DNA of 48,986 nt from positions 1 through 48,986 of the forward strand of contig DXDK01000036.1 of the NCBI GenBank assembly GCA_019115545.1, read 5' to 3'. The position numbers and the translations under genes were made by a program. The notes beneath the pieces were generated by a model. The model saw only the letters and a list, made by a program, of their open reading frames with translations. It was not told the origin of the DNA and made no database searches. This DNA is from Candidatus Evtepia faecavium. GTDB lineage: Bacteria > Bacillota > Clostridia > Oscillospirales > Oscillospiraceae. Below are positions 39,544-43,392 of this stretch, in pieces (within the stretch, counting starts at the first letter, position 1; the number at the start of each line of letters is the position of its first letter).

Positions 39544-39572
39544 TTGCGAAATTAGGAAAACTATGGTAGGAT
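39544..39572 (+). promoter_or_regulatory. predicted promoter of the DUF1538-PII operon with overlapping inverted repeat
   Basis: TTGCGA - 17 nt - TAGGAT with ATGG extended -10; ATGGTA-N9-TACCAT at 39563-39583. Confidence 0.45.
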
Positions 39573-39642
39573 AACTATACCATGTTAGTTTGTATGATTT
39601 CCCGCCGCGCCGGCGGCGGGCAGACGGGAAAGGAGGCATGCC

Positions 39643-41178
39643 TTGCGGCATAATCAGTTGCTTTTGGAAAAAATCAAGGAGTCCCTGGCCTCGGTGCTGC
39701 CCATCACGGCCATCGTGATGGTGATCAGCATCACCGTAGCTCCCCTGACCCCGGGCACCATGGTGCTCTTCCTCTTTGGCGCGGTGCTGCTGGTGGTGGG
39801 GATGGGCCTGTTCACCCTGGGGGTGGACATGTCCATGATCCCCATGGGGGACGCCATCGGGGTGAAGATCAGCAAGGCCCGCCGGGTGGTGATCCCCCTG
39901 GTGGTGTGCTTCATCCTGGGGCTGGTGGTCACCATTGCCGAGCCGGACCTTCAGGTCCTGGCCGAGCAGCTGCCCTCGGTGCCCAACATGACCCTCATCC
40001 TGGTGGTGGCCCTGGGGGTGGGCTTCTTTCTGGTGGTGGCCCAGGTGCGGATGCTGCTGAACATCCCCCTGTCCTACATGCTGCTGTTCTTCTATCTCCT
40101 TGTCTTTGTCCTCTCCTTCTTCGCCCCGGAGAGCTTCGTGCCCGCCGCCTTTGACTCCGGCGGGGTGACCACGGGGCCCATCACCGTGCCCTTCATCATG
40201 GCCCTGGGCATCGGCCTGGCTGCGGTGCGAAGCGATAAGAACTCGGGCAACGACGCCTTTGGCCTGGTGGCCCTGTGCTCCATCGGGCCCATCCTCTCGG
40301 TGATGCTCCTGGGCATCGTCATGCCCGACCTGGACGCGGCTTACACCGCCGTGTCCATCCCCGAGGTGGCCACCACCCAGGAGGCCGCCGCCCTCTTCGT
40401 CCACGAGCTGCCGGACTACGTAGGGGAGGTGGCCGTGGCCCTGCTGCCCATTGTGGCCATCTTCGCCCTCTTCCAGCTGATCTTCCGCCGCTTCCACCGG
40501 CACCAGTTGCTGAAGATGCTGGTGGGTTTGGTCTACACCTACCTGGGCCTGGTCCTCTTCCTCACAGGGGTGAACGTGGGCTTCCTCCCCGCCGGCGCCA
40601 CCATCGGCGGGGCCATCGCCTCCGGGGGGACCGGCTGGCTGCTGGTGCCCATCGGGGCCCTGGTGGGCTACTTCATCGTCCGGGCCGAGCCCGCCGTGCG
40701 GGTGCTGGCCCGGCAGGTGGAGGAGATCACCAACGGCTCCATTACCCAGCGGTCCATCAACCTGGCCCTGTCCATCGGCATCGCCATCTCCGTGGGCCTG
40801 GCCATGGTGCGGATCCTTACGGGGATCTCCATCCTGTGGTTCCTGATCCCCGGCTACGTGGTGGCCCTGGGGATGACCTTCCTGGTCCCCCAGATCTTCA
40901 CCGGCGTGGCCTTCGACTCCGGTGGGGTGGCCTCGGGCCCCATGACCACCACCTTCCTCCTCCCCCTGGCCATGGGGGCCTGCGAGGCGGTGGGGGGCGA
41001 CGTGCTCACCGACGCCTTCGGCATCGTGGCCCTGGTGGCCATGACGCCCCTGTTTACCATCCAGCTCATGGGCCTTGTGGACCAGCTCCGGGCCCGGGCA
41101 TCGGCCAAGGCCCTGCGCCAGGCCATCCACCAGGAGGTGGAGAGCCTGGAGTCGGGCGTGATCTACTGGGAGGAGTGA
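39643..41178 (+). CDS. DUF1538 domain-containing membrane protein
   Basis: Two homologous halves with FDSGGVTTGPITVPFIMALGIG and FDSGGVASGPMTTTFLLPLAMG; TTG start after AAAGGAGG. Confidence 0.88.
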   Translation: MRHNQLLLEKIKESLASVLPITAIVMVISITVAPLTPGTMVLFLFGAVLLVVGMGLFTLGVDMSMIPMGDAIGVKISKARRVVIPLVVCFILGLVVTIAEPDLQVLAEQLPSVPNMTLILVVALGVGFFLVVAQVRMLLNIPLSYMLLFFYLLVFVLSFFAPESFVPAAFDSGGVTTGPITVPFIMALGIGLAAVRSDKNSGNDAFGLVALCSIGPILSVMLLGIVMPDLDAAYTAVSIPEVATTQEAAALFVHELPDYVGEVAVALLPIVAIFALFQLIFRRFHRHQLLKMLVGLVYTYLGLVLFLTGVNVGFLPAGATIGGAIASGGTGWLLVPIGALVGYFIVRAEPAVRVLARQVEEITNGSITQRSINLALSIGIAISVGLAMVRILTGISILWFLIPGYVVALGMTFLVPQIFTGVAFDSGGVASGPMTTTFLLPLAMGACEAVGGDVLTDAFGIVALVAMTPLFTIQLMGLVDQLRARASAKALRQAIHQEVESLESGVIYWEE

Positions 41179-41182
41179 GTAT

Positions 41183-41863
41183 ATGGCACCATCGATCCCC
41201 CCCATGCAGCTGCTGGTCTCCATCGTGGAGCGGGGCAAGGGCCGGGACCTGCGGGAACACTACCGCCGGTTCGGCCTCATCCACCACAACCAGGCGGCCG
41301 GCCACGGCACCGCGGCCTCCCATCTGCTGGACGCCCTGGGCTTTGGAACCAGCGAGCGGGACGTCCTTCTGACCCTGGGCCCCCGGGACACCATGGCCCA
41401 GCTGATCTACTACCTGAAAGACGAGGACCGGGCCAAGCTGGATACCCCGGGCATCGCCTTTACCCTGAACCTGTCGGGGATGAGCGCCATCCTGGCGGTG
41501 GCCCTGTCCCGGCTGGAGGAAATGAAACCGGAAAGGGGAGAGCTATTCATGGAACAGGGCAACCACCACAGCCTCATTCTGGCCACGGTGAACCCGGGCT
41601 ACACCGACGAGGTCATGGAGACCGCCCGGGAAGCCGGCGCCCGGGGCGGGACCGTCATCCGCGCCCGCTGGACCGACGCCGACGAGGTGGGGAAGTTCGT
41701 GGGCATCTCCCTCCAGGCGGAGAAGGAGGTGCTGGCCATCGTGGCCACCAACCGGGAGCGCAACGCCATCCTGGAGGCCATCAACGACCGCCATGGCCTG
41801 CGCACCCCCGCCCAGGCCATGGTGATCTCCCTGCCCATCGACCACACCGCCCGCCTGGATTGA
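41183..41863 (+). CDS. P-II family (tandem PII-like) nitrogen-regulator-type protein
   Basis: Two PII/GlnB-like halves: MQLLVSIVERGKGRDLREHYRRFGL... and HSLILATVNPGYTDEVMETAREAGARGGTVIRAR...EKEVLAIVATNRERNAILEAI. Confidence 0.8.
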   Translation: MAPSIPPMQLLVSIVERGKGRDLREHYRRFGLIHHNQAAGHGTAASHLLDALGFGTSERDVLLTLGPRDTMAQLIYYLKDEDRAKLDTPGIAFTLNLSGMSAILAVALSRLEEMKPERGELFMEQGNHHSLILATVNPGYTDEVMETAREAGARGGTVIRARWTDADEVGKFVGISLQAEKEVLAIVATNRERNAILEAINDRHGLRTPAQAMVISLPIDHTARLD

Positions 41864-41882
41864 AGGGCGGCAGAGAGACGAG

Positions 41883-41915
41883 AACGCCCCCGCACGGCAG
41901 CCGTGCGGGGGCGTT
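41883..41915 (+). terminator. intrinsic terminator of the DUF1538-PII operon
   Basis: AACGCCCCCGCACGG-cag-CCGTGCGGGGGCGTT + TTTA. Confidence 0.9.
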
Positions 41916-41928
41916 TTTATATTACAGG

Positions 41929-43299: not shown

Positions 43300-43392
43300 T
43301 GGCGGAGAAGGAGGGATTCGAACCCTCGAGACCCTTTTGGGGCCTACACGATTTCCAATCGTGCGCGCTCGACCAAACTACGCGACTTCTCC
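43300..43392 (-). tRNA. tRNA-Ser(GGA), CCA encoded
   Basis: Minus strand GGAGAAGTCGCGTAGTTTGGTCGAGCGCGCACGATTGGAAATCGTGTAGGCCCC...GGGTTCGAATCCCTCCTTCTCCGCCA; anticodon loop TTGGAAA; long variable arm. Confidence 0.95.

Follow-up and report, generated by a model that had tools for sequence, protein, structure and literature searches.

PII and PII-like proteins control transporters that are encoded next to them, as in the GlnK–AmtB and SbtB–SbtA systems, and PII proteins gate the uptake of ammonium and bicarbonate. In the SbtA–SbtB system, the T-loop of SbtB enters a cytosolic cleft of SbtA, an inverted-repeat transporter (PMC8352866). Among DUF1538 proteins, UmpA and UmpB of Halomonas zhaodongensis together carry out Na+(Li+,K+)/H+ antiport, co-precipitate as a heterodimer and form a functional antiporter when umpAB is expressed alone in E. 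coli (PMC5484666). The view taken in the first-pass annotation of the locus studied here, that DUF1538 was without an assigned function, is outdated in the light of the monovalent cation/H+ antiport of UmpAB (PMC5484666).

Our study examined a window of 48 986 nucleotides, this being the whole stretch of DNA analysed, from Candidatus Evtepia faecavium (contig DXDK01000036.1). In this window a fused DUF1538 gene is followed, 4 nt downstream and on the same + strand, by a gene for a tandem PII-like protein (Table 1). The gene pair described in the first-pass annotation was real, with both ORFs located as in Table 1, and the single strong terminator claimed for it was borne out; the shared promoter was not, as no sigma-70-like site was found upstream of the operon. 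Both genes have good Shine–Dalgarno sequences, and because that of the second overlaps the end of the first, co-translation is supported and translational coupling appears likely. The neighbouring genes, read by eye, are a threonine-dehydratase-like gene on the other strand and a MarR-like gene downstream, which suggests that the pair forms a stand-alone operon. An upstream Na+ or c-di-AMP riboswitch was rejected, as neither the window nor 39 related loci gave an Rfam match of this kind. An inverted repeat, ATGGTA-N9-TACCAT, lies upstream of the operon at 39563–39583 and is a possible operator, and a tRNA gene (Rfam, 56 bits) is located at 43303–43392 on the − strand.

Table 1. Features of the DUF1538/PII-like operon, in window coordinates
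Feature	Position	Strand	Remarks
Shine–Dalgarno AAAGGAGG of DUF1538 gene	39629..39636	+	Read from sequence
Fused DUF1538 gene	39643..41178	+	511 aa; UmpA-like half and UmpB-like half; TTG start
N-terminal UmpA-like half	39643..40371	+	N-terminus predicted inside, linker outside, from charge distribution in 31 fused homologues
Glu100 of AEPD motif	39940..39942	+	Helix break, between predicted helices 83–98 and 101–109 (AlphaFold2)
Asp171 of FDSGGVTTGP	40153..40155	+	Near helix break
C-terminal UmpB-like half	40372..41175	+	Charge pattern inverted; C-terminus predicted cytosolic; PII domain fused to equivalent end in L228
Glu349, second-half equivalent of Glu100 (AEP)	40687..40689	+	Alignment of halves
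Asp425, second-half equivalent of Asp171 (FDSGG)	40915..40917	+	Alignment of halves
Shine–Dalgarno of PII gene	41168..41175	+	Within 3′ end of DUF1538 gene
Tandem PII-like gene	41183..41863	+	226 aa; ATG start; two ferredoxin-like domains predicted (AlphaFold2); Foldseek matches to PII/GlnK/SbtB
PII-like half 1	41183..41536	+	Retains T-loop motif GHGTA; G-G-T motif lost
PII-like half 2	41537..41860	+	G-G-T motif kept (GARGGTV)
Intrinsic terminator of two-gene operon	41880..41918	+	−36 kcal/mol, z = −8.3

Pfam identified two complete copies of PF07556 (DUF1538) in the membrane protein, with a score of 458 bits against a gathering score of 22.6. The two halves share 29 % identity over 239 aa (blastp, E = 1e-27), which upholds their proposed homology, and the motifs quoted for them in the first-pass annotation were present. 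The protein thus belongs, over both halves, to the same Pfam family as UmpAB and has the same two-subunit plan, fused here into one chain. It differs from UmpAB in that its matches to the NCBIfam models of UmpA (193 bits, E 1e-57) and UmpB (159 bits, E 1e-46) do not reach the equivalog cut-offs of 490 and 500 (NF041627 and NF041628), and in that no PII-like partner is mentioned for UmpAB (PMC5484666). From family membership the window protein is predicted to be a monovalent cation/H+ antiporter, and because its scores are far under the equivalog cut-offs its substrate may differ. The AlphaFold2 model (pLDDT 88.4, pTM 0.86) has a helix pattern that is repeated in both halves. No known antiporter fold could be matched to this model, which gave no significant match in the PDB (best E 0.07, TM ≤0.24).

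Two acidic positions, located in each half at or near helix breaks, stood out in the alignment of subunits and halves. The column of Glu100 and Glu349 holds E or D in 201/201 subunits or halves, and that of Asp171 and Asp425 holds D in all 201, making these residues candidate cation/proton ligands. Their presence bears on an explanation that we consider unlikely, namely that the DUF1538 proteins of gut Clostridia carry some other solute, such as cation-coupled carboxylate or bicarbonate, and that the PII-like protein couples this transport to carbon/nitrogen state. The unreached UmpA and UmpB cut-offs would be consistent with it, as would a solitary PII gene of the same type that adjoins a CitMHS/ArsB-type permease and the many hosts that are gut bacteria and not haloalkaliphiles. 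However, the acidic helix-break residues are common to the paired UmpA/UmpB forms, which often come from saline and alkaliphilic hosts, and DUF1538 is among the cation transporters listed as growth pH predictors (PMC13255231).

The topology of the family was approached through the distribution of positive charge. Comparing UmpA with UmpB (n=67 each), K+R values were 2.5 vs 0.6 at the N-terminus, 0.3 vs 2.4 in loop 1 and 0.2 vs 4.1 at the C-terminus, and the halves of 31 fused homologues displayed the same opposite positive-inside bias. Under the positive-inside rule, this bias would set the two halves antiparallel and give the fused protein a cytosolic C-terminus. The DUF1538 transporter is therefore probably an antiparallel pair, and its cytosolic C-terminus marks the side where a PII domain could act. 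Single-gene members (n=5), all from one clade, have intermediate charges that are compatible with dual topology. We know of no sequence relation between DUF1538 and the UPF0016 or small multidrug resistance families, and of no PII-like partner for those two families. The likeness to these pairs lies in the occurrence of single, paired and fused antiparallel forms within one family (PMC4067407), and the authors of the UmpAB study themselves drew a comparison between UmpAB and PsmrAB (PMC5484666).

The partner protein was harder to assign. Its Pfam P-II score was 12.6 bits, under the gathering score of 25, whereas its single-domain relatives exceed this cut-off (31–37 bits). No meaningful similarity was detected by blastp between its two PII halves, nor any PII match by phmmer against PDB sequences, and structure and profiles were needed. 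The AlphaFold2 model (47-sequence alignment, pLDDT 83) contains two beta-alpha-beta-beta-alpha-beta domains, and the best PDB matches of this model by Foldseek include PII, GlnK and SbtB. The two PII-like halves claimed in the first-pass annotation, weak at the level of sequence, are thus supported by the predicted structure, in which the ferredoxin-like PII fold appears twice.

In canonical PII proteins the G[GA]T motif adjoins the nucleotide cleft, and by analogy this motif presumably contacts nucleotide in the PII-like proteins. Among proteins linked to a fused DUF1538, G[GA]T is present in every second half (71/71), suggesting that the binding site has been kept there, while G[GAS]T is found in only 20/71 first halves; at paired-DUF1538 loci, G[GA]T is kept in nearly all PII halves. 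Lys90, Arg101 and Arg103, the ATP phosphate ligands of GlnB/GlnK, are mostly replaced by non-basic residues in the PII-like alignment. The uridylylation site Y-[KR]-G-[AS]-[AE]-Y and the C-terminal PII signature were found in 0/180 linked PII-like proteins, with both E. coli controls positive, and the tyrosine that is uridylylated in GlnK is missing from the family. With the phosphate ligands and both canonical signatures absent, nucleotide binding by the PII-like protein is not assured. The T-loop of the family aligns as six residues shorter than that of E. coli GlnK, and single-domain members conserve within the family a T-loop pattern of their own, GRGTG-HE-K-LLGI-IEPEKE.

Links to metal-ion systems are known for some PII-fold relatives, and the PII-like protein might accordingly sense the transported ion itself, as CutA or PII-NG relatives do, without a nucleotide. 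We regard this as quite improbable: the loss of the phosphate ligands would agree with it, but G[GA]T has been retained, and the 47-sequence alignment showed no Cys/His cluster in its invariant or nearly invariant columns.

The best reading of the pair, by analogy, is that it would work like SbtA–SbtB or AmtB–GlnK with a different transporter. As in SbtA–SbtB, the PII-like gene lies in the operon of its transporter, the regulator has a predicted PII-like fold and the transporter is probably built from two inverted repeats (PMC8352866 for SbtA). Unlike that system, the DUF1538 model matches no solved transporter significantly, the T-loop is shorter than that of GlnK, there are often two PII domains per chain, and the substrate is different. 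AmtB–GlnK likewise has its transporter encoded together with a PII-fold regulator; however, the transporter is unrelated, the gene order is the reverse of DUF1538 followed by PII, and the DUF1538-linked proteins lack the uridylylation and C-terminal PII signatures present in GlnK.

The association of the two families was found to hold well beyond the window. Among 60 relatives, DUF1538 occurred in 17 genomes and the PII type in the same 17, with all 18 loci adjacent. A survey of the phylum (399 genomes) revealed 137 genomes with both, two with DUF1538 only, one with the PII only (at E ≤1e-20) and 259 with neither, giving a Fisher p of about 1e-104 for co-occurrence, a value uncorrected for relatedness. 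Both DUF1538-only genomes were explained, one by a contig end and the other by a decayed gene. The decayed gene has six in-frame stops (G115:C1:2161174-2161630), and the PII type is absent from its genome. Where both genes were present, the PII gene lay downstream of DUF1538 on the same strand in 158/158 operons scored; L228 was scored apart, its tandem PII gene standing upstream of a DUF1538–PII fusion as the sole departure from this order.

A scan of named genomes extended these observations to 80 loci from Bacillota, Balneolia, Desulfobacterota, Aminicenantes, Caldiserica, a spirochaete and methanogenic archaea. Contig ends aside, the PII gene was missing only in Metabacillus and two Sutcliffiella genomes, Bacillales with umpAB in which no such PII was found elsewhere in the genome. 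In one of these three loci (L147, L158 and L162), L147, the next gene is, by eye, a YitT-type-like membrane gene. In Alphaproteobacteria (Methylocystis, Chelativorans plasmids) the arrangement is UmpA-UmpB-PII, with the first two annotated as DUF1538 proteins and the third as a P-II family regulator. The linkage of DUF1538 and PII is thus supported as near-universal over phyla and both domains, Bacteria and Archaea, and the pair is co-conserved far beyond close relatives of the window genome. That the genes merely travel together without functional contact is hardly credible, being contradicted by this linkage on plasmids as well as chromosomes, by the constant order and by the fusion. The transporter/regulator unit that the first-pass annotation had proposed is strongly supported by co-occurrence, gene order and one fusion, with the amendment that DUF1538, given no function there, does have one assigned, monovalent cation/H+ antiport.

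The component families are already known and their pairing is visible in automatic annotation. No paper treating DUF1538 together with PII-like proteins was found in the open-access literature, subscription journals lying outside the search, and none of the papers on PII-like proteins and H+ antiporters found there appears, by title and abstract, to describe such a pair. The near-universal PII partner was not found published, although priority cannot be claimed.

The architecture of the loci was variable. Among loci that could be classed, those with a fused DUF1538 had two PII domains (71 fused, 7 split) or three (3 loci), and never one; paired loci had two (27 fused, 14 split), one (24) or none (3); and the five single-DUF1538 loci had one. 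An origin of both partners through duplication and fusion, as suggested in the first-pass annotation, agrees with the window locus but is not general, as unfused pairs, or singles accompanied by one PII gene, are common among the homologues. A relationship between DUF1538 form and PII domain count was rejected as statistical proof of coupling, since the tree requires only three changes of DUF1538 form and five of PII count; with so few independent switches, the pattern suggests matched assembly but does not prove it. L028 (5915–6685), left out of the counts, has a tandem PII and a one-repeat DUF1538 whose beginning resembles half 1 and whose end resembles half 2, which may reflect recombination or a collapsed assembly.

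Three PII domains were arranged in different ways. In L225 (4534–5559, G426) a triple-PII chain of 341 aa adjoins a fused DUF1538 and may amount to an entire PII trimer within a single polypeptide, and in L223, near a contig end, the three domains form a 2+1 set. L228 (5638–7494, G446) encodes, as one ORF, a double-repeat DUF1538 with a PII domain fused in frame at its C-terminus, and the tandem PII gene preceding this fusion brings the total to three.

The fusion in L228 would also suit a different role for the PII-like protein, as a constitutive structural or assembly subunit, that is, a detachable cytosolic cap aiding efficiency or stability with no ligand-controlled gate. The loss of the canonical phosphate ligands points the same way, as does the aromatic amino acid exporter AexB, whose attached PII-like cap improves efflux by a mechanism that is not established (PMC13170310). 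AexB differs in belonging to another membrane family and in carrying its cap within the same chain. We judge a constitutive subunit to be improbable, as umpAB alone suffices for UmpAB activity in E. coli (PMC5484666), Metabacillus and Sutcliffiella keep umpAB without a PII gene, and G[GA]T in every second half suggests a kept binding site. The first two of these observations favour a regulatory role for the PII over an essential one.

Taken together, we consider it probable, with some reserve, that DUF1538 and the PII-like protein form a monovalent cation/H+ antiporter with a dedicated cytosolic PII-like regulator that binds adenine nucleotide. The antiporter would be built from a pair of homologous halves, with seven helices apiece in UmpA and UmpB, that lie in the membrane in opposite orientations and are fused in the window. 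The PII-like domains would assemble into PII trimers or pseudo-trimers (rings or pseudo-rings) that bind adenine nucleotide, and such a ring would dock on the cytosolic face of the antiporter, most likely via its short T-loops, and would switch cation/proton exchange on or off in response to energy status or a second messenger. We infer the physical docking, the substrate in this lineage, the nucleotide and the direction of control. That an exchanger family is almost always encoded with a PII-fold protein suggests that cells gate the exchanger by an internal metabolite signal.

Counted in favour of the PII-regulated antiporter were UmpAB antiport, the near-universal linkage and constant order, the L228 fusion, the predicted PII fold, the charge asymmetry, the conserved Glu and Asp residues and the permease neighbour of the PII gene in L235. 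Counted against it were the sub-cut-off UmpA and UmpB scores, the lost phosphate ligands and signatures, the first half without G-G-T and the three Bacillales without a PII gene. A wider generalization, which we put forward tentatively and with rather more doubt than belief, is a family of PII-gated cation/proton antiporters in Bacteria and Archaea. Here an antiparallel two-domain antiporter, of a fold unmatched in solved structures, would be switched by PII rings, for which each gene set supplies one, two or three domains; in many fused forms, a single position of the ring would have lost the presumed nucleotide motif.

If control of an antiporter is true, PII signalling would extend to pH and Na+/K+ homeostasis, and there would be a ready account of how an antiporter is tuned to the energy of the cell. 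The pairing also completes the description of DUF1538, as the published antiporter was studied without the apparent usual partner of its family, and its occurrence in single, paired and fused forms provides a natural resource for studying the evolution of antiparallel transporters and the assembly of PII rings.

PII-like genes were also found away from DUF1538. Tandem genes occur in L226 (4892–5614) and L222 (5778–6560), and the permease divergent to that of L226 gave no Pfam match at E ≤1e-5. In L235 (5158–5589, G425), from a genome without DUF1538, a gene of the same PII type lies upstream of the CitMHS/ArsB-type permease (302 bits). In L231 (4703–5050, G161:C13), a single PII-like gene directly follows pntA-pntB, encoding the proton-translocating NAD(P) transhydrogenase, a candidate case of PII control of this enzyme. 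The solitary genes beside pntAB and the permease fit a general role for these proteins in controlling ion-coupled membrane proteins.
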